Assembly (NCBI GenBank): GCA_001717025.1 | Contig: MAGU01000036.1 | Coordinates: 1 to 42,473, forward strand | DNA from: Candidatus Methanomethylicus oleisabuli | GTDB taxonomy: Archaea; Thermoproteota; Methanomethylicia; Methanomethylicales; Methanomethylicaceae | Direction: 5' to 3' | Length of the DNA: 42,473 nucleotides | Shown here: one piece after another, positions 17,416-31,521 of the stretch | Layout of the letters: every line of letters begins with the position of its first letter | Numbering within the stretch: position 1 is the stretch's first letter | Notes under the pieces: generated by a model | The model's input: only the letters and a program-made list of their open reading frames with translations | The model's database searches: none | What the model was told of the DNA's origin: nothing | Program-made: the position numbers and the translations under genes

Positions 17416-18447
17416 TTGAAGATTTACGAATACGCTATTAGGCGCATATTTCTCTTAATATTTGTGATATTTGGTGTTACTATAATCACTTTTATATTTA
17501 CGCGAGTGCTGCTCAATCCCCTTGCCGCATATATCACCGACAAAACACCTCCAGACGCAGTTATTGCTATAATCCAAGCTCATGGCTTCGACCGTCCGAT
17601 CTACGAGCAGTATTTCATTTATTTGAAGGATCTCGTCACTCTCGACTGGGGATGGTCAAACGTAGGACATATGGCGCTTACCGACGCCATAAGGACATTC
17701 TTCCCCGCTACGGTAGAACTGACGATCCTTGCAATCATAATTACCGTGTTGATAGGCGTTCCATTGGGAATAATCAGCGCACTCAAGAACAACAAATGGC
17801 AAGACCATGCCTCGAGGATATTCTCGCTCGTTGGGATCTCTATCCCCGTCTTTTGGCTTGGTCTTTCGCTCCAGTATGCATTCACATATTGGACCCGATC
17901 AATCGGGCTGCCCTTCCTGCCAAGCACAGGCCGCGTGGATCCATTGCTCTTGATACAGAACCCCGTCCAAGGATGGACCGGCATGCTCATGCTTGATTCC
18001 TTTTTACAAGGCAATTTTGTAATCACATTGGACGTATTTAAGCATCTGATATTGCCCGCCATCACGCTCGCGTTTCTGAACGTGGGGATTCTGACGAGGC
18101 TGACCCGGTCATCGATGCTCGAGGTCATACGCCAGGATTACATCACGATGGCAAAGGCGTACGGTTTGCCAAGAAGGGTCATCATATACAAATACGCGCT
18201 TAAGAATGCAATGATACCCGTAATAACCTCCGTAGGGCTGATCTTTGGAGGCATGCTTGGCGGCGCGATCATAACCGAATCAATCTTCTCCTATCCTGGC
18301 ATGGGGTGGCTAAGCTACAGGGCCATCGTGTTCAACGACTCTAACACCATACTGGCATACGTCGTCGTGGTCGCAATCATCTTCGTCAGCGTCAACCTCC
18401 TCGTTGACATAATCTACGCATGGCTGGACCCGCGCATAAAATACTGA
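17416..18447 (+). CDS. dppB: Dipeptide/oligopeptide ABC transporter permease, DppB-like
   Basis: 343 aa; IRRIFLLIFVIFGVTIITFIFTRVLL N-terminus and EAA-loop-like DYITMAKAYGLPRRVIIYKYALKNAMIPVIT. Confidence 0.93.
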   Translation: MKIYEYAIRRIFLLIFVIFGVTIITFIFTRVLLNPLAAYITDKTPPDAVIAIIQAHGFDRPIYEQYFIYLKDLVTLDWGWSNVGHMALTDAIRTFFPATVELTILAIIITVLIGVPLGIISALKNNKWQDHASRIFSLVGISIPVFWLGLSLQYAFTYWTRSIGLPFLPSTGRVDPLLLIQNPVQGWTGMLMLDSFLQGNFVITLDVFKHLILPAITLAFLNVGILTRLTRSSMLEVIRQDYITMAKAYGLPRRVIIYKYALKNAMIPVITSVGLIFGGMLGGAIITESIFSYPGMGWLSYRAIVFNDSNTILAYVVVVAIIFVSVNLLVDIIYAWLDPRIKY

Positions 18448-18457
18448 GGCAACTGAC

Positions 18458-19345
18458 ATGACTTCTACCAACCGAAACTCATCGCGCACAGGTTCGCTGA
18501 AGTACAAGGAATTTCGCTACTCGCTGCACCTGTTGTTTAGCAACAAGCTGGTCGTCTTTGGGATGTGCATAGTCCTCTTCTTCAGCACATTGGCCATCAT
18601 AGGCCCATTGCTGGTCGACCCAAACGAACCAATGAACGTCAATTTTAAGAACGATCTACTCCCGCCAAGCTGGGAGCACCCATTTGGGACCGATGATTTG
18701 GGCAGGGACGTCTTCAAGCTAGTCATACTCGGCGCAAGGTATGACCTCAGCATCTCGCTGCTTGTTGTCGCAATAGCCGCAATCGTAGGGATATTCGTGG
18801 GCGCGGTCTCAGGCTATGTCGGGGGAAAGGTGGACGAGCTCTTCATGAGGATAGTTGACATCCTCTTTGCATTCCCAGGCCTGATATTGGCCATGGCCAT
18901 ATCAATGGTTTTGGGCCGGTCTTTCCTCAACCTCTTCTTATCGTTGGTGTTGGTGTGGTGGACCTCATATGCCCGGTTCATGCGCGGTCAGGTTCTCGCT
19001 GAAAGGGAGAAGCTTTACGTGAAGGCGTCCAAATCGCTAGGTCTGTCCAACTTCCGGACGCTCTTCAGGCACGTCCTGCCGAACGCCGTCTTCCCGATGA
19101 TCATCCTTGCGACCATGGATATAGGCAGCGTGATGCTCTCGGCCGCGGGCCTGAGCTTCATTGGGCTCGGTCCGTCTCCATTCGAGCCGGAGTGGGGAAC
19201 GCTTGTGAATAGGGGTGCGCCATACCTGTTTATGGCGCCGTGGCTAATCAGCATTCCTGGTGTGACCATCCTCCTTGCGAGCTTAGGGTTCAACTTGATG
19301 GGGGACGGCATAAGAGATGTGCTGGACCCGAGGCTGAGGAGGTAA
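18458..19345 (+). CDS. dppC: Dipeptide/oligopeptide ABC transporter permease, DppC-like
   Basis: 295 aa; EHPFGTDDLGRDVFKLVILGARYDLSISLLVV and EKLYVKASKSLGLSNFRTLFRHVLPNAVFPMI. Confidence 0.93.
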   Translation: MTSTNRNSSRTGSLKYKEFRYSLHLLFSNKLVVFGMCIVLFFSTLAIIGPLLVDPNEPMNVNFKNDLLPPSWEHPFGTDDLGRDVFKLVILGARYDLSISLLVVAIAAIVGIFVGAVSGYVGGKVDELFMRIVDILFAFPGLILAMAISMVLGRSFLNLFLSLVLVWWTSYARFMRGQVLAEREKLYVKASKSLGLSNFRTLFRHVLPNAVFPMIILATMDIGSVMLSAAGLSFIGLGPSPFEPEWGTLVNRGAPYLFMAPWLISIPGVTILLASLGFNLMGDGIRDVLDPRLRR

Positions 19346-19350
19346 ACCTG

Positions 19351-20349
19351 TTGGAAAAAGTGCTTGAAGTCAAGGACCTGAGCGTTCAATTCAAGACCTA
19401 TCGCGGAATCGTGAAGGCACTAAACGGCATATCCTTTGACGTGCTCAAGGGCGAGATGCTTGGGCTTGCAGGAGAGACCGGCTCAGGGAAGTCAGTCACC
19501 AGCCAAGCCATAATGCGGACCCTTCCTGAAAACTCAAAGATCGCTGGCGGCTCAGTCTTATTTGAAGGCAAAGACCTGCTGAAGCTAACTGAAAAGGATA
19601 TCGAAATGGTGAGAGGCAGGTCCATCACTGCTGTCTTCCAGGATCCTCACACCTACCTAAATCCTGTCTTCAGAATAGGTCAGCAGTTCAAGGACATCCT
19701 GCTTAACGACCCGGCCATATCGTCAATAAAGGATAAGAAGAAACGTGAGGCCACCATAAATGAGAAGATGACGCAGTCCTTTAGAGACGTGAAGATGCCG
19801 TCGCCTGAACGCATCATAAGGTCATACCCCCATGAGCTGAGTGGGGGCATGAAGCAACGAGTATTGATAGCAATGGCATTCTCCTTGAAGCCTAGCCTGA
19901 TAATTGCCGATGAGCCTACAACGGCACTTGATGTAACGATACAGGCCCAAGTGCTCCGGCTGATGCGCGAGCTGCAGAAGAAGTATCACACATCTGTCGT
20001 GCTCATCACACATGATCTCGGTGTTATAGCCGAAAACTGCGACAGGATTGCAATCATGTATGCCGGCAGGATCGTCGAGTTCGGCGATGTGAAGACCGTC
20101 TACGCCAAACCACTCCATCCATACACGCAAGGTCTTATGAGAGCGCTTCCAAGAGCCGATAAGGACGCCCAAATTGAGAGCATCGGTGGGACTGTCCCTG
20201 ACCTTGTTAATCCGCCGAAGGGCTGCACTTTCCACGAACGCTGCCGGAATGTCATGGATGTCTGCAAGACATCTCCGCCCTCGCCACTATTTCATGAAGG
20301 GCGAATCGTCGAATGCCACTTGTACAACGAACCGTTGGGAGGGAGCTAA
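19351..20349 (+). CDS. dppD: Dipeptide/oligopeptide ABC transporter ATP-binding protein, DppD-like
   Basis: Walker A AGETGSGKSVTSQ, signature HELSGGMKQRVLIAMA, oligopeptide C-terminal CTFHERCRNVMDVC. TTG start at 19351 behind gaggaggt; the ORF track extends upstream to 19240. Confidence 0.92.
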   Translation: MEKVLEVKDLSVQFKTYRGIVKALNGISFDVLKGEMLGLAGETGSGKSVTSQAIMRTLPENSKIAGGSVLFEGKDLLKLTEKDIEMVRGRSITAVFQDPHTYLNPVFRIGQQFKDILLNDPAISSIKDKKKREATINEKMTQSFRDVKMPSPERIIRSYPHELSGGMKQRVLIAMAFSLKPSLIIADEPTTALDVTIQAQVLRLMRELQKKYHTSVVLITHDLGVIAENCDRIAIMYAGRIVEFGDVKTVYAKPLHPYTQGLMRALPRADKDAQIESIGGTVPDLVNPPKGCTFHERCRNVMDVCKTSPPSPLFHEGRIVECHLYNEPLGGS

Positions 20350-20354
20350 AAACC

Positions 20355-21323
20355 ATGAGCGATAGCGATATCGCATTAAGGCTAGAAGGTCTTCAAAAGT
20401 GGTTCCCGATTACGGGGGGGCTGCTCCAGAAGACCGTGGGATATGTATATGCTGTAGATGATGCGACATTCGATATAAAGAAGGGTGAGACCGTCGCCCT
20501 CGTTGGTGAAAGTGGGAGTGGCAAATCAACCGTTGGGCTTGTCATAAACCAGCTGGAGCGAGCCACTGGCGGCAGAATCTTCTACAATGGGAAGGAAATA
20601 TCAAATCTGAAGGGCAAGGATCTGAATGCATACCGTTCAAAGATTCAGATGGTCTTCCAAGACCCGCAGGCGTCGATGGACCCGAGGATGCGCCTCAAAG
20701 ACGCCATCATTGAAGTGATGAAGGCTCATCGTATCGAAGGAGACGTCTACAAAAAGGCAGTCGAGATCATGGAGCGCGTCGGGCTTAGTGAAGAGCACCT
20801 ATATCGCTACCCTCACGAACTATCGGGCGGTCAGCGGCAACGCGCCGTAATAGCAAGAGCGTTGAGTCTAAACCCCGAATTCATAATACTGGACGAGCCA
20901 ACCGCCTCGTTAGACGTCTCGGTCCAAGCGCAAGTATTGGAGCTGCTTCGAGAGCTGCAACGGAAGTATGGATATACCTACCTGCTGATCACGCACAACC
21001 TCGCAGTGGTCCGTTATATCAGCTCAAGGACCGTCGTGATGTACCGAGGCTTCTGGGTGGAGAAGTCGACGACAAAGAGGCTATTCAAGAGCGCAGCTCA
21101 TCCGTATACATTGGCGCTGCTATCCAGCGTGCCTATCCCTGAACCTGGCGCGGTAAAGCGGGACATCATCCTCCAGGGCGAGCCGTCGAACCCAACGAAG
21201 AGGGCTACCCTCTGCCCATTCGCAGAGCGCTGCCCACTCATAATGCCCATCTGCAAGGAGAAGATGCCTCCAATCAGGGAACTCGAACAAGACCACTTTG
21301 TGAGGTGCTGGCTCGAGCATTGA
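20355..21323 (+). CDS. dppF: Dipeptide/oligopeptide ABC transporter ATP-binding protein, DppF-like
   Basis: Walker A GESGSGKSTVG, signature HELSGGQRQRAVIARAL, C-terminal LCPFAERCPLIMPICKEKMPPI. Confidence 0.93.
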   Translation: MSDSDIALRLEGLQKWFPITGGLLQKTVGYVYAVDDATFDIKKGETVALVGESGSGKSTVGLVINQLERATGGRIFYNGKEISNLKGKDLNAYRSKIQMVFQDPQASMDPRMRLKDAIIEVMKAHRIEGDVYKKAVEIMERVGLSEEHLYRYPHELSGGQRQRAVIARALSLNPEFIILDEPTASLDVSVQAQVLELLRELQRKYGYTYLLITHNLAVVRYISSRTVVMYRGFWVEKSTTKRLFKSAAHPYTLALLSSVPIPEPGAVKRDIILQGEPSNPTKRATLCPFAERCPLIMPICKEKMPPIRELEQDHFVRCWLEH

Positions 21324-22515: not shown

Positions 22516-23004
22516 ATGCAGACGGCAGACGAATCACGGTTGCCCGTCGACAGAAACGCTAATATCCTTCATGCTTTCTCTCAAAACTGGTGCCGCGATA
22601 TGCGAAAACGCCCTGCCTTAATTCTTGTAATGGTGGCCATCCAAGTAATCATGGTTGCTATAGACCTGCTCATGCCATTCCTTTTGGGCACATACGTAGA
22701 TATGGGCACTACCGACTTCCTGATGGCTTACTTCTACGCGATGCTCGACTTCCTGTTGATATTGGGCTTCCTGCGCGGCGACAAGTGGGCGTTCATCTTC
22801 GGCCTCCTCTTCTCAGGCATAAACCTCACGATGAACGTCTTCTCATACTTTAGCAACCCTGTCCTCCTCTATGCTATAATCATCATACTTAGAGCTATAG
22901 TGATGCTCTGCTTGAGGGACAGCAACGTGAGGATCTACATGGACATGAAGAAGGTAGGTCCAAAAAACCCAAAAAAGGCTGACACGAAGAAGCTCAAGAG
23001 ATGA
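22516..23004 (+). CDS. Multi-spanning membrane protein of unknown function
   Basis: 162 aa with about four hydrophobic segments (PALILVMVAIQVIMVAIDLLMPFLLG...); basic C-terminus. Confidence 0.65.
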   Translation: MQTADESRLPVDRNANILHAFSQNWCRDMRKRPALILVMVAIQVIMVAIDLLMPFLLGTYVDMGTTDFLMAYFYAMLDFLLILGFLRGDKWAFIFGLLFSGINLTMNVFSYFSNPVLLYAIIIILRAIVMLCLRDSNVRIYMDMKKVGPKNPKKADTKKLKR

Positions 23005-23677
23005 GGGGGAACACCTCGTCCCTGATGTAGGACAGGAACTCCTCCTCTTTTACCTTGCTGAAAGCCGTCACGACGGCGCTCCTAGTAACTCCAACGACGA
23101 TGCCGTACCTTCTGGACTTGAAGACCATGTACCATATGCTTCCGCGCGACGAGTATTCGTTGTAAAGCGACGTGTCCGCGAGGCCGGACCCATACAGCGA
23201 CAGCTTGTTTATGTTGGGGATGTCGACGCCGTCGAAGAACATGACCTTCGTGTCCTCTGGGTTCTGCTCGTGGAATCTCTTTAGCGTCTTGGGGTCGATC
23301 TTCGCCTCGGCAATGCTCCCGGTGGCTATGAACAGGATCTTGCTCATCATATTGGCAATGCTGTTCGCCATCGCCTTCTTCTCCAGCACGATCAGGTATA
23401 CCCGTTCCCCGTATTTTGCGAAGAGGAAGGGCGCTTCCAGCGTCTTGGTGACCAGCCTGCTGCCATCCCTGTGCCTGACCTCGAATGCTACGTCGTGGGA
23501 GAATGTGCCTTGCAGCGTGTCTGGCGAGAGGCTAAGCCCGGTGATCTCTGTGACGAGCGGAACCGTCTGGTCCCCATAAGCAAACTCATCCTCTGACCTG
23601 TAGCCTTTCAGCTTACCTGATATCGTTGGGAGGTCCGCCTCCTCCTTGATTATAAAGACCTTGCCCGCAAGAACCAT
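22994..23677 (-). CDS. Conserved-looking archaeal protein of unknown function
   Basis: 227 aa MVLAGKVFIIKEEADLPTISGKLKGYRSEDEFAYGDQTVPLV...; compact alpha/beta composition; convergent overlap of 11 nt with the preceding gene. Confidence 0.65.
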   Translation of the reverse strand: MVLAGKVFIIKEEADLPTISGKLKGYRSEDEFAYGDQTVPLVTEITGLSLSPDTLQGTFSHDVAFEVRHRDGSRLVTKTLEAPFLFAKYGERVYLIVLEKKAMANSIANMMSKILFIATGSIAEAKIDPKTLKRFHEQNPEDTKVMFFDGVDIPNINKLSLYGSGLADTSLYNEYSSRGSIWYMVFKSRRYGIVVGVTRSAVVTAFSKVKEEEFLSYIRDEVFPLIS

Positions 23678-23715: not shown

Positions 23716-25239
23716 TTATCCTTGCGCCCCGTCAACCCACGCGAACCTCCTCTGCAGGGACTTGGTGTAGTAGAGCTTCCAGTCAAAGTCCACCTCCCTC
23801 CCCCAGTCGGCGTATACCCTGGGATCGATGTAGTTCTTAAGCGAAGTGTTGAGGTTATAGTCGCGGGTCGCCCGCATAAGCTTCACCCTCAGCTCGGCCT
23901 CCTTTATCTTCTCGCTCTTTGCATTCCTCTCCTTTAGGAGCTCGAGTCTGGACTTCCTCTTCTTCAGCGCCTCCTCCCAGTTCTTCGGTAGCTTCCTCTT
24001 GTGGTTGCAGACTATTGCAGACTGGAGATTTGCCATCGCGGCATGGTACTTCTTCAGGTAGACCGGATCGCCCTTCTTTACCCCCGACTTGCGGAGCGCC
24101 TCCTTTGTTGTTGTGGACGCATGGAACGTCCTGAACACCTTCGCAGTAAGGTTCTCCATCGCCTGACCGAGGTATTCGTTCACCTTCTGTGATCTGACGC
24201 CGTTGAATATCGTCTCGCCGCCCTCCTCGATGAACTCCTTCAGGTTCTCGATGACGATCTCTGGAGGGTTGATCTTATGGTACCACCTTACCGAGTCCTT
24301 GCCTAAGAAATCGAACGTTACCGTCTTCGCCTCTTCGTCTATTATTACGTGCTCCGCCCTCAGCGTCGTCGCTCCGACTGTATCCGCCTCATCATCGTCC
24401 TTCTCGTCGCCGACCCGCATCTTCAGTGTGTCGATGAGGTAGCAAACCGTGGCGACCTTCCTCTCAACAATGCCGTCCGACTCCATGCCCTTTGAGATGT
24501 AGCGCCGGACCTCATTGATCTTCTTCTCAAGCTCCCATGCCTTGTCGAACTTCTCTATATCCCTTGCCTGCTTGATATACGCCGTGTCCGAGAGCCAGAC
24601 GTATTTCATCTTCCCCCTCAGCTTGTCCTTCCATCTGGCTATCCACAGCGATTCAGCATCGAAGGTGGTGCCTCCCCATCTCCCGCCTCCCGGCGGGACC
24701 GGCGGCTTGACCCCGGGTGACAAGTTGAGCGTTATGTCCTCTGTCATTATCCCGGGTTTCCAGCTCCCTCGCAGAGGGTGCTTCCCCCTTCCCATGAATA
24801 TAGATGCCGGCTCGACGAGGTAGTTGCTGACCTCCATGGGTACGCCGTTGATCTTCGCAAACCCGTACTTCAGCCTGTTCTCTTCCCTCTTGGCCTTCCG
24901 TTCGGCGGCGAGCGCCTTCTTCTCATCTCTGCTCATCGCTTCCCTCTTGGTCCTCTCCGAATCCAGCCACCTCTGTATGGCTGAAAAATCAAAATCTTCT
25001 GGACCGACCCTCCCCTTCAGCTTCATCGCCTTACCGAAGTCCCGGAAGAAGTTGCGCACGAATACTGGATCCGACGAATACTCTGTGGGGATCTTCCTCA
25101 CCCACGCGACCGCCATCTCCTCCTGCTCGGGTGTAAGCTTGACAAAGTTACCCCTGAATCCGATGGAAAATCCCTTGTAGTCATAAGTGGGTACCATGAC
25201 GCCGTTATGCTCCAGCCTCTTGACCTCTATCTTCTCCAT
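23716..25239 (-). CDS. Eukaryotic-type DNA topoisomerase IB
   Basis: 507 aa; EPASIFMGRGKHPLRGSWKPGIMTEDITLNL, WLSDTAYIKQARDIEKFDKAWELEKKI, VATVCYLIDTLKMRVGDEKDDDEADTVGATTLR, and C-terminal NLNTSLKNYIDPRVYADWGR with the catalytic Tyr context. Confidence 0.95.
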   Translation of the reverse strand: MEKIEVKRLEHNGVMVPTYDYKGFSIGFRGNFVKLTPEQEEMAVAWVRKIPTEYSSDPVFVRNFFRDFGKAMKLKGRVGPEDFDFSAIQRWLDSERTKREAMSRDEKKALAAERKAKREENRLKYGFAKINGVPMEVSNYLVEPASIFMGRGKHPLRGSWKPGIMTEDITLNLSPGVKPPVPPGGGRWGGTTFDAESLWIARWKDKLRGKMKYVWLSDTAYIKQARDIEKFDKAWELEKKINEVRRYISKGMESDGIVERKVATVCYLIDTLKMRVGDEKDDDEADTVGATTLRAEHVIIDEEAKTVTFDFLGKDSVRWYHKINPPEIVIENLKEFIEEGGETIFNGVRSQKVNEYLGQAMENLTAKVFRTFHASTTTKEALRKSGVKKGDPVYLKKYHAAMANLQSAIVCNHKRKLPKNWEEALKKRKSRLELLKERNAKSEKIKEAELRVKLMRATRDYNLNTSLKNYIDPRVYADWGREVDFDWKLYYTKSLQRRFAWVDGAQG

Positions 25240-25368
25240 CGGAGATCGCCTTTATCATTCAATCAACATGCAGTTCTTAGATAAACTTTATCATCATTTT
25301 CAAGGGATATTGGACTAGCTCAGCTAGCATAGCCTAGCTTGGCGGTGCTGACAAGGTGCCCCCAAACT

Positions 25369-25401
25369 CCATGCCGGTGCCGGCACGACGATCGCGCATG
25401 G
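25369..25401. promoter_or_regulatory. Nested inverted repeats in the intergenic region between topoisomerase IB and the SMC operon
   Basis: tgccgg-tg-ccggca (25372-25385), nested in an outer ccatgc (25369-25374) / gcatgg (25396-25401) pair; TATA-like cataaattaatat follows at about 25415. Confidence 0.4.
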
Positions 25402-25454
25402 GATGCCTTCCTAGCATAAATTAATATGCCACTAAACCTCTAAAGAAAAAGCCT

Positions 25455-27230
25455 TTGGGGGCTGCAAATACGTCGAAGTTGACTATACTTGAGGTCATCC
25501 TCGAGAACTTCATGTCGTACGAGTATGCCAGGGTCCCCCTCCGGCGGGGGCTCAACCTCATATGCGGCCCCAACGGCGCAGGAAAATCATCAGTCCTGCT
25601 CGCCATCTCGGTAGCAACCGGTCAGAGCTACACCGAGCGTTCTAGGAAGCTCGCAGACCTCATAAGGAGGGGCAAGGAGACTGCGAGGGTTAGCCTGGTC
25701 CTCAATAACTATGCCGAGGATGGCAAAAGGCCCGTTCCGCTGATAAACAGCGACTTGATCACGGTCTCGCGCTATCTTAAGAAGGATGGAACATACTGGT
25801 TCGAGATAAACGGTAAAGAGGCCAGCAAGTTCGATGTCAACAACCTCTTCAAGCGAGTAGGCATGAATCCTGACAACATGCTCATAATAATGCACCAGAA
25901 CATGATCGAGGAGTTTGCGATAACAACCCCTGAAGAGAAGCTGCGGATGGTCGAGGAGGCTGTCGGGTTCTCGCAGTACCGGAAGGCCATCTATGAGTCG
26001 GAGGAGAAGCTGAACCGCATCCTAGGGGAGGAGGCTGCGACCTCGCAGCTCCTCTCGAGCGCCGAGCAGACGCTACTATACTGGAAGGAGCTGAACGACC
26101 GCTATGCCGAGAAGGTGTCGCTCCTTGAAAGGAAGTCCTTCGTTGAGAGGGAGATGATGTGGGCACAGATCATACGCAGCGAGCGCTCGCTCGCCGCTGT
26201 GGATGAGCGCATACGCCTGAAGTCATCGCAGCAGGAAGACCTGGCCGCCGAGATCTCATCGAGGTCGAAGCTCGGGAATGCCCTCTGGGAGCAGTACCTC
26301 GCCGAGAAGGAGCGGTTCAGGAGGGCACTCGCCGGCGGCGGTGCGTCTGACGACCTTCTGAAGGAGGTTGGGACGGTCAGCTCCAAGCTCGATGAAGTGG
26401 TCCGGGGATACGTCGACGCGAAGGTCAGCGAGGCCGTCCTCACTTACAGGATTGGCGAGGTAGGGAAGGAGCTCAAGGAGCTAAACAGCGCCCGCGGAGA
26501 TGCCAAGGCGCAGCTCGACGAGGCACGCAAGCTTATCGATAAGGCGGGCGAGCGGATAGAAACCTCCAGGACTTTGCAGGAGATCTCAGACGAGATGAAG
26601 TTCTTGAACGCCCACCTGCTCTCCCTCGGCGAGATACCCGACGACACGCCTTCGATGTATCAGACCTACCAGAGGACCTACAGCGAGCTGAAGCAGAAGG
26701 CAGATGTCGTGGGCATCAACAGGAAGAAGGCGATCGAGGAGATAGACGAGCGGAAGAACGTCTGGCGCAGGGTGATGGAACGTCTGGTAGACGATATAAA
26801 CCCCATCTACCACGAGGTTCTAGCCAAGGTTGGAGGGCTCGGAAACGTTAGGCTCTCAAATCTGGATGATCCGGATCATGCTGGGGTAGAGGTCTCGGTA
26901 GGCTTCAGGGGGACCTCTCCGGTCCTGCTCGATGCATACGCGCAGAGTGGGGGGGAGAGGGCGGTAGCAACGATGGCCTTCCTGCTTGCGCTGCAGCACA
27001 ATCTGAAATCTCCAGTTCGTGCAGTCGATGAGTTTGATGTGCACATGGACCCTTCGAACAGGGAGTCCATGATGCGCATGCTCTTCTCTTTCATGAACGA
27101 GAATTCGGACGTCCAATTCATCGTGATCACTCCAAGCCAGCTGAGCGCCATTGGCGAGTTTGCAAACATCATATTCGTCCAGAACGTTCACGGCAGATCG
27201 GAGGTGGCAAAGGCTGCCCCAAAGCCATAA
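25455..27230 (+). CDS. Smc5-like SMC-family ATPase with short arms and no obvious hinge
   Basis: 591 aa. N-term ILEVILENFMSYEYARVPLRRGLNLICGPNGAGKSSVLLAISVATG; MLIIMHQNMIEEFAITTPEEKLRMVEEAVG; C-term VGGLGNVRLSNLDDPDHAGVEVSVGFRG...YAQSGGERAVATMAFLLALQ...VRAVDEFDVHMDPSNRESMMRM...VQFIVITPSQL. Order and wording resemble Smc5 heads. TTG start uncertain. Confidence 0.85.
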   Translation: MGAANTSKLTILEVILENFMSYEYARVPLRRGLNLICGPNGAGKSSVLLAISVATGQSYTERSRKLADLIRRGKETARVSLVLNNYAEDGKRPVPLINSDLITVSRYLKKDGTYWFEINGKEASKFDVNNLFKRVGMNPDNMLIIMHQNMIEEFAITTPEEKLRMVEEAVGFSQYRKAIYESEEKLNRILGEEAATSQLLSSAEQTLLYWKELNDRYAEKVSLLERKSFVEREMMWAQIIRSERSLAAVDERIRLKSSQQEDLAAEISSRSKLGNALWEQYLAEKERFRRALAGGGASDDLLKEVGTVSSKLDEVVRGYVDAKVSEAVLTYRIGEVGKELKELNSARGDAKAQLDEARKLIDKAGERIETSRTLQEISDEMKFLNAHLLSLGEIPDDTPSMYQTYQRTYSELKQKADVVGINRKKAIEEIDERKNVWRRVMERLVDDINPIYHEVLAKVGGLGNVRLSNLDDPDHAGVEVSVGFRGTSPVLLDAYAQSGGERAVATMAFLLALQHNLKSPVRAVDEFDVHMDPSNRESMMRMLFSFMNENSDVQFIVITPSQLSAIGEFANIIFVQNVHGRSEVAKAAPKP

Positions 27231-28011
27231 TGAAGGGTATTACGATGAGCTGGCGAGGATAATACTCCTATGCGAGAGCATAAGCACGAAGAGCGACGAC
27301 CCATTCCTAGTCGATGTGCCGCAGAAGCTTCTAGTCCTGAAGCGGCTCCTCCCCAAATGGAAGGCGATCGATGATCTGCTCCTCGACGCCGAGGCGTTGA
27401 AGGAGCTCTCCTTGATGGTAAAGCTCCAGAGCGATTGGGTAAAGCGCAGGGCTACGGGGCTATACATTGACCCCTTTCTGGTAGAGGTAAAGATCAAGGT
27501 GATGCCAAAGGAATCGCTGGCCTCGGCGCTCTTGGCATCCTGGCACCCCATCGTCGCTGGGGAGCAGCTGACCGAGGGCAGGCTGTCAAGGGCACTCGAT
27601 TACTGGAACGCGCTCGTCCCCCTATCCCAGCGCGTGAGCGAGCTTGACGCCGCGAGGGATATGCAGGAGAAGACCTTGAGCGTCTCGGACCTAATCAAGC
27701 TCAGGTTCCTCTCGGACAAGATCTTTCAGGAGGAGACGTCGAAGGTGCTCTCCGAGCTAAAGGAGCGGTCAAAAGGCGGCGCCATCGACTACTGGCACTT
27801 CGTAACGGTCGACACCTACGAAGAAACCGTTATGAGATCGTATGCGCTGACCTTCCTGATCTCAAACGGTTATGCCAACCTTATCATAAACCCGATAGAA
27901 GAGACGGTCATGGTTGAGGCGTTACCGGCGCAGGAGCAGAAGAGCAGCGGCGGCAGGTCCGTGCCGATAGCTGTAAGCTACTCAAAGTGGAAAGAGATGC
28001 GGGGTTTGTAA
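27151..28011 (+). CDS. Nse4-like kleisin candidate
   Basis: C-terminal IDYWHFVTVDTYEETVMRSYALTFLISNGYANLIINPIEETVMVEALPAQEQKSSGGRSVPIAVSYSKWKEMRGL resembles the Nse4 C-terminal domain pattern. Start ambiguous: TTG 27151/27160, or CTG 27214 behind ggaggtgg; no in-frame ATG near the start. Confidence 0.65.
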   Translation: MASLQTSYSSRTFTADRRWQRLPQSHNEGYYDELARIILLCESISTKSDDPFLVDVPQKLLVLKRLLPKWKAIDDLLLDAEALKELSLMVKLQSDWVKRRATGLYIDPFLVEVKIKVMPKESLASALLASWHPIVAGEQLTEGRLSRALDYWNALVPLSQRVSELDAARDMQEKTLSVSDLIKLRFLSDKIFQEETSKVLSELKERSKGGAIDYWHFVTVDTYEETVMRSYALTFLISNGYANLIINPIEETVMVEALPAQEQKSSGGRSVPIAVSYSKWKEMRGL

Positions 28012-28012
28012 G

Positions 28013-28594
28013 ATGAGCGAGGATGCGACGATATCAAAGAAGGTGAAGAAGGCAGCTCAGCTGCTGCTCTACCAGCACCACCGCCTTCCAGGCTCCAAGG
28101 GATGGGAGATAAAGAAGGTCATCGGGAAGGATTATATGAATGTCATAAAGCTGCTGGAGCGCAAGCTCGACGACCTTGGGCTGGAGATCAAGATAGTCTA
28201 CCCTGACGGCATAGATCGCGTGAGCCCCACCGAATACGATCTCGAGCAGGCGAGGTTTTACGTCCTCTCCAAGGTCCCGATACAGAGCGGCGAGGCATCG
28301 CTCTCTGGCTGGCGGATCGACACGCTTGCAGTTCTTGCGGCAGCACTCGCCACGATCACCTCCAAGCAAGGGAAGGCGACGAGGAGGGAGGTCGAGGAGC
28401 TTCTCCAGGAGAAGTTCCCTGACTGGAAGGTGGATCAGGACCTCAACCGCTTCATAAGGAGGGGATACCTAGACGAAGACGAGTCAGGCATGCTCTTCAT
28501 CGGATGGCGGACGAGGGCCGAGGTCGACTTGAAGAAGCTAATGGGCATCGTTGCCGGCTCGTTGCCCGAGGAGCATGCGGACGAGGTCGGCTGA
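28013..28594 (+). CDS. Nse3/MAGE-like tandem winged-helix (KITE) protein candidate
   Basis: 193 aa; EIKKVIGKDYMNVIKLLERKLDDLGLEIKIVYPDG then LAVLAAALATITSKQGKATRREVEELLQEKFPDWKVDQDLNRFIRRGYLDEDESGMLFIGWRTRAEVDLKKLMGIVA, resembling MAGE WH-A and WH-B including the ...YL...FxWGxRAxxE segment. Confidence 0.65.
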   Translation: MSEDATISKKVKKAAQLLLYQHHRLPGSKGWEIKKVIGKDYMNVIKLLERKLDDLGLEIKIVYPDGIDRVSPTEYDLEQARFYVLSKVPIQSGEASLSGWRIDTLAVLAAALATITSKQGKATRREVEELLQEKFPDWKVDQDLNRFIRRGYLDEDESGMLFIGWRTRAEVDLKKLMGIVAGSLPEEHADEVG

Positions 28595-28638: not shown

Positions 28639-31521
28639 TCACGGGCGCGGTCTGCGCATACGCATGCGCGCCTTCATGGCCGTCCGCTCCTCCCGCAGTA
28701 TCGTGTCAACAAAGTAGTCCAGATCGCCGATCTTAGACGTCGCCAGGGTGATCATGACCGGTTTGGATATCCCCTTAGCAGCCAGAGCAAGTGCCGCCGA
28801 CAGCCCATATGCTCCTACGAGCTCCCCGCTCTCTATCGCCTCTTTGTATATGCCTTTGAACCTCTCCGAGACCCTATCTAGTTCTGACCTCTCGGCCGCC
28901 ATCTGCGCAACCTCGGTGGGGTCATCGCTTAGTAGGCCTATCTTCTTGGAGCCACATTCAGGGCAGCTGAACTCTGCCATGAACCTCTTCACCTTGACGT
29001 TCTCCACGTATCTGAAGCAGTTGGTGCAGACCGCGACCATCGCCTCGTTCAGGAGCCTCGCCTTGCCCGATTCTATGAGCAGCCTCCTTAGCCTGTCGGC
29101 CGGCACCAGATCTGTCTTCCAGCTCAGCTCCCTTATGCCTATTCTCGACATGGGCGAGAGCGGCAGGTCGCCCCGCATCACCCTTACATTATACTCCCCT
29201 GCGATAATGCCCCTGACGACCTTGGTAGTGCCCTCCACGTCTAGGTCCTTGAAGAGCACCTCCTTCATCGCCTCCTTGTATATGACCGTACCCCTCAGGT
29301 TCTCGAGCAGGTGGGTCAGGCCCACATCGCTGACATCGGCGTCCTTCTCGATGATCCCCATCCTCTTTGAGACGTGGAGGAGCCTCCTCTTGAACAAGCC
29401 GGTCCTCTCGACAGCGACGCCGGTGAGGCGCTCGACGTCGCCAGGCTCTATCGCACTAATCGCCTCGGCAACCATCTGCGGGTCAGCGCTCGTCTTAAGG
29501 AAGATCCTATACGCATCTTGGGATGCCCCTGCCCCGCTGCCTGTCCTCTGGGTCAGAACGTATCCAAAAATTCTTGAGAGCGTCTTGTTGATCATCAGGC
29601 CGAATGCGCAGCTTATTATCGCGTACCCCTCCCACCCCTCGATAGTGATGACCTTATCTGACGGCATGTCCCAGCCGCCGTCGGCCTGTTCCCTCACCTC
29701 GGCGAGGGCCCTGCCGAGTGTGGCCTCGTTTACTGGGTAGTCGACCGCGATACTCTTTATCGCCTCGTCATACGGCATGCCGGACTTCAGGTAGCCTGCT
29801 ACCCTTCCCCTGATAGATGCTACCTCTTGAGCCACCTCAAAAGGAACCGGTATCTCATCACCGACCCAGTCCGGAATTGCCCCCGACGGGTCCTGCTCTG
29901 CCCTGACGTAGACCGCGTCGTTGAATATCTGCACGATCTTCCAAGGCGACCCCCTGACGATGAACTTTACTCCGGGTTCGCCATACTCCGCAACGAACGC
30001 CTCGTCGAGCATCCCTATAGGCTCGTCCTTACCCTCATCTATGACTACGTAGTGCTTCTCCTCCGGGATCATTGAAAGGTTTTCAAAGTAGTATTTGTAG
30101 AGCGCCTCCGTTGGCCTGGACTTTATGAATAGCCCCTCCTCCTTCAGGAGCAGACCAAGCCTCGGCCTCCTGTTTGCCATGTACTCCAGCACCTCCATCA
30201 GCTCCCCCTCCTCCAGGTCCCTGAATGGGTAGGCCCTCCTCACTATCCCCAGTATCTCCCCTGTCTCCCTCCTTCCATCCTCGAGCAGCAGCCCCGCCAC
30301 CTGCTGGCAGAGGACATCGAGCGGGCTCTTAACGATCGAAACATCCTCGAGCTCCTCCTTGAGTGACCTCTTGACTATGACCGTGGACTCTAGCGCATCG
30401 TCCGAGTCCATCGTTATTATTACGCCCTTGGAGGTACCGCCGACCCAGTGCCCGGCCCTGCCGACCCGCTGGAGTAGCCTGGTCGCCTGCCTAGGAGAGT
30501 TGTACTGAACCACTAGGTCGACGTTCCCGATGTCGATGCCAAGCTCGAGTGACGATGTGCAGACGACCCCCCTTAGCTCGCCCTTCTTGAGGCTGTTCTC
30601 CACGTCAACCCTCGACGGCTTCGCGAGGCTCCCATGGTGTATGCTGATCGGCATATCGATATCCCAAACCCTGAACCTGCTTGCGAGTATCTCCGCCTCT
30701 GAACGCGTATTAGTGAATATGAGCGTGGAGCGGTTCTCATCTATGAGCTCCCTAATCTTCCTGAGCCTCGCCGCGACCTCCGGGAATGTGGCTATCCTCT
30801 CGGCGAGTTCATAGTCCCTCTGCTCCGCCTCAGGGAGGAGCACGTCCAGTTGCGTGTCCTTCGCAACCGACACCCTTGCTATCTCGCAAGCTCTGCTGGG
30901 ACCGACGAGGAACTTCGCGACGACCTCTGGCGAGCCTATTGTGGCGGAGAGGCCTATTATCTGCGGCTCGGTCTGCGTGAGCATACGGAGCCTCTCGAGC
31001 GCGACCGTCAGCTGGCTGCCCCTCTTGTCGTTTGTGAGCTCGTGGACCTCATCCACGATGATCCACCTCACCTTCGACAGATGCCTCCTGAGTATCTTGC
31101 CTGGCAGTATAGCCTCCAGCGTCTCGGGCGTAGTTATCATTATGTCTGGCGGCGCCATCGCCTGCTTCCCCCTCTCCTTCGTCTCAGTATCGCCGTGCCT
31201 GACCGCAACCTTCAGGTCAAGCCTCCCACACCACCACTGCAGCCTGTCCATCAGATCCCTGTTGAGTGCCCTGAGCGGCGAGATGTAGAGCGCTCTGATG
31301 CCGCTCCTGTCGCCGTCCTTTATCAGGCTGTCCAGTATGGGAAGGAACGCCGCCTCAGTCTTGCCGGTACCCGTCGGGGCTATTATCAGCACGTTCTTGC
31401 CGGAGGCTATGAGGGGTATCGCCATCCTCTGCGGCTCGGTGAATCCCTCAAACCCCCTCTCCGCGATTATCCTCTGTATAGGCTTTGAGAACAACGGCAG
31501 AAGATCATCCATAAGGATCAA
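28639..31521 (-). CDS. lhr: Lhr-type DEAD/DEAH superfamily 2 helicase
   Basis: 960 aa; APTGTGKTEAAFLPIL, IIVDEVHEL, GLSATIGSPE, SLELGIDIGNVDLVVQYNSPRQATRLLQRVGRAGH; C-terminal zinc site CTNCFRY...CPECGSKKIG. Confidence 0.93.
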   Translation of the reverse strand: MILMDDLLPLFSKPIQRIIAERGFEGFTEPQRMAIPLIASGKNVLIIAPTGTGKTEAAFLPILDSLIKDGDRSGIRALYISPLRALNRDLMDRLQWWCGRLDLKVAVRHGDTETKERGKQAMAPPDIMITTPETLEAILPGKILRRHLSKVRWIIVDEVHELTNDKRGSQLTVALERLRMLTQTEPQIIGLSATIGSPEVVAKFLVGPSRACEIARVSVAKDTQLDVLLPEAEQRDYELAERIATFPEVAARLRKIRELIDENRSTLIFTNTRSEAEILASRFRVWDIDMPISIHHGSLAKPSRVDVENSLKKGELRGVVCTSSLELGIDIGNVDLVVQYNSPRQATRLLQRVGRAGHWVGGTSKGVIITMDSDDALESTVIVKRSLKEELEDVSIVKSPLDVLCQQVAGLLLEDGRRETGEILGIVRRAYPFRDLEEGELMEVLEYMANRRPRLGLLLKEEGLFIKSRPTEALYKYYFENLSMIPEEKHYVVIDEGKDEPIGMLDEAFVAEYGEPGVKFIVRGSPWKIVQIFNDAVYVRAEQDPSGAIPDWVGDEIPVPFEVAQEVASIRGRVAGYLKSGMPYDEAIKSIAVDYPVNEATLGRALAEVREQADGGWDMPSDKVITIEGWEGYAIISCAFGLMINKTLSRIFGYVLTQRTGSGAGASQDAYRIFLKTSADPQMVAEAISAIEPGDVERLTGVAVERTGLFKRRLLHVSKRMGIIEKDADVSDVGLTHLLENLRGTVIYKEAMKEVLFKDLDVEGTTKVVRGIIAGEYNVRVMRGDLPLSPMSRIGIRELSWKTDLVPADRLRRLLIESGKARLLNEAMVAVCTNCFRYVENVKVKRFMAEFSCPECGSKKIGLLSDDPTEVAQMAAERSELDRVSERFKGIYKEAIESGELVGAYGLSAALALAAKGISKPVMITLATSKIGDLDYFVDTILREERTAMKARMRMRRPRP

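Follow-up and report, generated by a model that had tools for sequence, protein, structure and literature searches.

In the genome of Candidatus Methanomethylicus oleisabuli, the gene of a eukaryote-type topoisomerase IB (TopoIB) stands head to head with an Smc5/6-like operon, and the locus raises the question of whether the two form a functional pair. Here we consider a stretch of 42,473 nucleotides (contig MAGU01000036.1), hereafter the window, together with related loci of other Thermoproteota. The reading that we favour, at a probability of about two in three, is that of a chromosome-maintenance block, which comprises the core of an Smc5/6-like complex, an ancient partner with the RdgC fold, and a TopoIB gene inserted once. 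Smc5/6 is the least understood of the eukaryotic SMC complexes, and an archaeal relative encoded by three genes, one of them for an Nse4-type kleisin, offers a minimal system for asking about its ancestral role.

Topoisomerase IB

TopoIB is encoded on the minus strand (23716-25239) by an intact open reading frame of 507 aa. The protein matches three Pfam domains, the DNA-binding N fragment (1.8e-53), the catalytic core (8.7e-66) and the C-terminal domain (8e-16), and its best match in PDB is the archaeal TOP1 of Caldiarchaeum (CsTOP1; 9e-139), followed by human TOP1 (~1e-78). The equivalents of human R488, K532, R590 and H632 are retained in the alignment, and the tyrosine motif TSLKNYIDPR is found in the C-terminal end region. 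Judged by its sequence, the protein is hence a eukaryote-type topoisomerase IB with all three domains and the Arg/Lys/Arg/His/Tyr active site, in agreement with the first-pass annotation of this DNA. Its domain order and catalytic residues are the same as in the eukaryote-like TopoIB of Thaumarchaeota and Caldiarchaeum (PMC2621148; PDB 6z01), but, unlike the latter, the TopoIB of the host family adjoins an Smc5/6-like operon.

The Smc5/6-like operon

The first gene of the operon (ORF1, 25455-27230, plus strand) encodes a mini-SMC ATPase of 591 aa with the Walker A motif GPNGAGKS, the signature QSGGER and the Walker B motif DEFDVHMD. The profile of 25 relatives of ORF1 scored far better with Smc6 (3e-64) and Smc5 (4e-63) than with bacterial SMC (2e-48) or SMC2 (2e-42); ranked by profile score, the ATPase thus appears closest to Smc5/Smc6, ahead of SMC1-4 and bacterial SMC. 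A hinge domain is absent from the Pfam matches of the 591-aa protein, the coiled coil is short, and the middle region lacks the CxxC of a zinc hook; the relatives have open frames of up to ~760 aa. Membership in the ASRP (coalescin/Sph) family was rejected, given the missing CxxC and an NCBIfam ASRP score of 50.6 bits against a cut-off of 300. At 1e-6, the genome of the window contains one match to the operon SMC, and at 1e-50 there is one SMC locus per genome of the host family, except for one extra fragment in G157.

The second gene (ORF2, 27214-28011, plus strand) encodes an Nse4-type kleisin of 265 aa. It matches Nse4/EID3 in PDB (4e-5), the Pfam domain Nse4_C is found in 21 of 25 members of its family, and the top fold match of its predicted structure (model pLDDT only 75) is Nse4 (2.6e-4), with the C-terminal winged helix of ScpA also among the matches. 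Together with the Smc6 and Smc5 profile matches of ORF1, this bears out the earlier designation of the operon as Smc5/6-like. The start of ORF2 is most likely the CTG at 27214, which overlaps the 3' end of the SMC gene and is preceded there by a GGAGGTG Shine-Dalgarno sequence (window 27190-27230), rather than the listed TTG at 27151. Most family members have no ATG, GTG or TTG at the conserved N-terminus of ORF2; in the sister family and genus g5, the apparent start codon is TTG instead of CTG. The missing standard start had raised the idea of a frameshift fusion of the SMC ATPase and the kleisin, which we dropped, as a properly spaced GGAGGTG precedes a CTG or TTG there.

The third gene (ORF3, 28013-28594, plus strand) encodes a tandem winged-helix protein of 193 aa that may be KITE-like. 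The similarity is weak: among 25 relatives, MAGE is matched in seven and SMC_Nse1 in four (best 2e-5), the window protein itself matches neither, and the PDB search with ORF3 yielded no match of the KITE (Nse1/Nse3) type.

The eukaryotic Smc5/6 complex consists of Smc5, Smc6, the Nse4 kleisin and the Nse1/Nse3 KITE subunits, to which the archaeal operon is similar in its SMC heads nearest to Smc5/Smc6, its Nse4-type kleisin and one tandem winged-helix subunit that weakly resembles MAGE/Nse1; the Walker B motif of Smc6, DEFDVYMD, shares DEFDVxMD with that of the operon SMC. The differences are that the eukaryotic complex is built on an SMC heterodimer with a long coiled coil and a hinge, whereas the operon has only one KITE-like gene and a single SMC gene, whose 591-aa product has a short coiled coil and lacks a recognisable hinge. 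Neither the Nse2 SUMO ligase nor Nse5/Nse6 is encoded among the operon genes. Archaeal "SMC5/6-related" SMCs that branch with Smc5/6 were described by Yoshinaga and Inagaki, as cited in PMC9389158. The operon SMC most likely belongs to this group, and in itself it is therefore of a known kind; the literature on the group that we covered, to which the 2021 primary paper does not belong, gives no description of an Nse4/KITE operon or of its neighbours.

The divergent intergenic region

Since the SMC gene starts at the TTG at 25455, which aligns with the start in the closest relative (G169), the gap between the two divergent genes (25240-25454) is exactly 215 bp. Thus, the coordinates proposed earlier, with TopoIB at 23716-25239 on the minus strand and the operon extending on the plus strand to the ORF3 stop at 28594, are exact.

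If TopoIB and the operon were a co-regulated divergent pair, the topoisomerase would relax supercoils made or sensed by the SMC complex, and the shared gap would coordinate the expression of both sides. The gap length fits this, as the spacing is 169-247 bp in most members of the family. However, when the gap was aligned with that of G169, its two ends proved conserved, and the middle was diverged and contained indels. By eye, a candidate BRE/TATA element of topoIB (AAAGTTTATC, 25280-25293, minus strand) can be seen at one end; it is kept between the window and G169, and a sequence of the AAAGYTTATG type is found near this position in the intergenic regions inspected. At the other end, the SMC operon has a candidate TATA element of its own (CATAAATTAATATG, 25415-25428, plus strand; also located by eye), which is identical in G169. 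As it lies ~27 nt ahead of the TTG start, the SMC transcript is probably near-leaderless. The ends of the gap thus look like two separate core promoters, from which the TopoIB side and the SMC side would each be driven.

A shared operator or a bidirectional promoter is unsupported, given that the middle of the gap aligns poorly, with indels, between close relatives. In addition, the spacing in G022 is 820 bp and carries an inserted ORF of 161 aa between topoIB and the SMC gene (L063 6727-7212). With two separate conserved ends, a diverged middle and an ORF within the gap of a family member, co-regulation via a shared element, as suggested earlier from the arrangement of the genes, does not find support. 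Rfam and tRNA searches revealed no Rfam family and no tRNA in the gap.

Distribution of TopoIB and the SMC operon

The sample of the host family (Methanomethylicales lineage) comprised 22 genomes from seven genera. TopoIB is present in 18 of them, and in all 18, representing six of the seven genera, it is head to head with the SMC gene. The remaining genomes are the two of genus g6 (90 and 92% complete), G145, whose contig begins within the SMC gene, and G234, which is 59% complete. This conservation of the order across six genera is in favour of a co-regulated pair. Against it, among the 31 sampled Thermoproteota genomes outside the family that have both TopoIB and the SMC gene, the two are seen adjacent in none: mostly they are on separate contigs, and in G017 and G249, where they share one, they are more than 500 kb apart.

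The presence of TopoIB is also not associated with that of the SMC complex. The phylum sample consisted of 300 genomes drawn from a larger set, many of them drafts; in the 299 genomes other than that of the window, we observed both genes in 48, TopoIB only in 64, SMC only in 79 and neither in 108 (odds ratio 1.03, p = 1.0, at the genome level, where relatedness is ignored; p = 0.24 by family). The calls of SMC presence are clear-cut, as the genomes, ranked by best E-value, split into two groups with a gap between ~1e-48 and 1e-19. The head-to-head order is thus not unique to the genome of the window, and the conservation that the first-pass annotation proposed to examine holds throughout the TopoIB-bearing part of the family but not outside it, while the correlated distribution expected for topoIB and the operon is not observed. 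An ancient specific TopoIB-SMC pair is rejected on account of this phyletic independence and the lack of linkage beyond the family.

The RdgC-fold protein, an older divergent partner

Immediately behind topoIB, at 38 bp and on the same strand, there is a gene for a protein of 227 aa (22994-23677, minus strand). In loci without TopoIB, such as those of genus g6 and the sister family f2, this gene directly abuts the SMC gene in divergent orientation; in the window TopoIB lies between the two. By match coordinates, 20 genomes from 11 other families, the sister family included, have it in direct divergence from SMC, as does g6. In the same 299 genomes, both genes are present in 111, the 227-aa protein only in 13, SMC only in 16 and neither in 159 (odds ratio 85, again at the genome level with relatedness ignored); by family, the respective numbers are 27, 3, 4 and 21 (p = 4e-8; table compiled by hand). 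Nor does their co-occurrence depend on proximity: in families f17, f19 and f35, among others, the two genes are far apart or on different contigs.

Searched against Pfam, NCBIfam and PADLOC, the 227-aa protein gave nothing above background. Its AlphaFold2 model (pLDDT 90.8) has E. coli RdgC as the top Foldseek match in PDB (E = 8.5e-6, TM 0.61 by query length), and in the viral library BFVD named RdgC proteins match the model at 9e-7 and 1.5e-5. Hence, according to two structure libraries, its predicted fold is shared with RdgC of E. coli and the RdgC-like proteins of Halobacteria and Bacillus (PMC11390915), although it has 227 aa against ~300 aa in RdgC and no sequence similarity is detected: none of the 23 members of its family matches the RdgC Pfam domain, and hhalign against one and against 13 RdgC sequences indicated no relation (probability 0.2% with the 13). 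Because the sequence profiles are silent and the rmsd is 6-9 Å, RdgC should be understood here as an approximate fold assignment predicted from the model rather than as family membership. The RdgC-like proteins of Halobacteria adjoin a histone gene or operon (PMC11390915), whereas in Thermoproteota the link is to the SMC operon; for an RdgC-like protein adjoining an SMC operon, we found no report in the literature covered, which is incomplete and excludes preprints.

As a partner of the SMC complex, the RdgC-like gene is a stronger lead than TopoIB. We consider it possible, though rather less than an even chance, that in much of Thermoproteota a minimal Smc5/6-like complex has the RdgC-fold protein as its dedicated, hitherto unrecognised accessory factor, either for loading or for regulating recombination, and that TopoIB was a further addition in one family.

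History of the locus

In the TopoIB tree, the sequences of the host family form one clade (support 100/100), whose neighbours are TopoIB sequences from other lineages rather than those of the f12/f22/f44/f48 group. In the SMC tree, the TopoIB-less genus g6 is nested within the host family (95/95). As TopoIB is monophyletic and g6 is nested, one gain and one loss suffice; the simplest history suggested by the trees is a single basal insertion of TopoIB in the family, between the RdgC-like and SMC genes, followed by a single loss. Since the RdgC-like gene is the older, co-occurring divergent partner, TopoIB would have joined an already existing block of the RdgC-like gene, the Smc5/6-like operon and the gene of an Lhr-type helicase. 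The helicase (960 aa; 28639-31521, minus strand) is convergent with the operon, and it adjoins the operon in several other families too (L087-L089, L091-L093, L098, L100).

A DUF2127-like membrane protein (window 22516-23004) adjoins the RdgC-like gene in the family. As this unrelated gene is kept as faithfully as TopoIB, the persistence of the TopoIB-SMC order does not in itself point to a function. The genes of an oligopeptide-type ABC transporter (window 17416-21323) are located beside the block and have no match in the compared flanking stretches, including that of G169.

Given the confinement to one family, the single insertion, the loss in g6, where the SMC complex was kept, and the older divergent partner, the specific TopoIB-SMC pairing proposed in the first-pass annotation is not supported, and a functional co-regulated pair seems unlikely. 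A looser connection is reasonable, because in eukaryotes Smc5/6 is enriched where DNA is positively supercoiled and upon topoisomerase inactivation (PMC11668287), an observation that speaks for the co-regulated pair as well; a functional link between TopoIB and the SMC complex is thus possible, if unproven.

The opposite alternative is that TopoIB landed at this place by chance and that the block has no joint function beyond the three-gene complex. The single insertion, the phyletic independence of TopoIB from the SMC complex and the generally high synteny of the block in the family all agree with it. On the other hand, the RdgC-like gene and SMC co-occur strongly even on different contigs, and their divergent arrangement recurs in 11 other families, so that chance is a very unlikely explanation for the RdgC-like gene. 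Hence, mere hitch-hiking is possible for TopoIB alone, while as an account of the whole block we hold it to be the less probable choice, ahead of the co-regulated pair. In either case, the example of TopoIB calls for caution: a back-to-back order kept by a whole family may stem from a single insertion and does not imply a functional pair.

The block could also be an SMC-based defence system of the Wadjet or Lamassu kind, whose effector would be TopoIB or the RdgC-like protein. PADLOC models indeed match the SMC ATPase (mad3 best, 8e-35; LmuB, 1e-17), as is expected of SMC-like ATPases in general. However, this ATPase is the only PADLOC match, the kleisin, KITE-like and RdgC-like proteins matching no model; the neighbouring genes include no JetD or other nuclease effector and no Lamassu partner genes. 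Defence islands also differ from a block that is near-universal and largely vertically inherited in whole families and that keeps its location. We therefore reject membership in Wadjet or Lamassu and regard a defence role as highly improbable.

Proposed roles of the proteins

For the favoured chromosome-maintenance block, we infer the following division of labour. The SMC ATPase, probably as a homodimer, would form a complex with the Nse4-type kleisin and the KITE-like subunit produced from the same operon; by analogy with its relatives, this complex may entrap DNA and compact or extrude it at recombination and replication structures. RdgC is a ring-shaped dimer that surrounds duplex DNA and inhibits RecA. 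The RdgC-fold product probably binds duplex DNA and would, at the same sites as the complex, tune strand-exchange recombination, which RadA performs in archaea. The recurrence of such a neighbour suggests that recombination control is within the job of the complex, and it names a partner that can be tested. TopoIB most likely relaxes supercoils in general, among them perhaps those generated by the SMC complex. A type IA topoisomerase is also encoded elsewhere in the genome.
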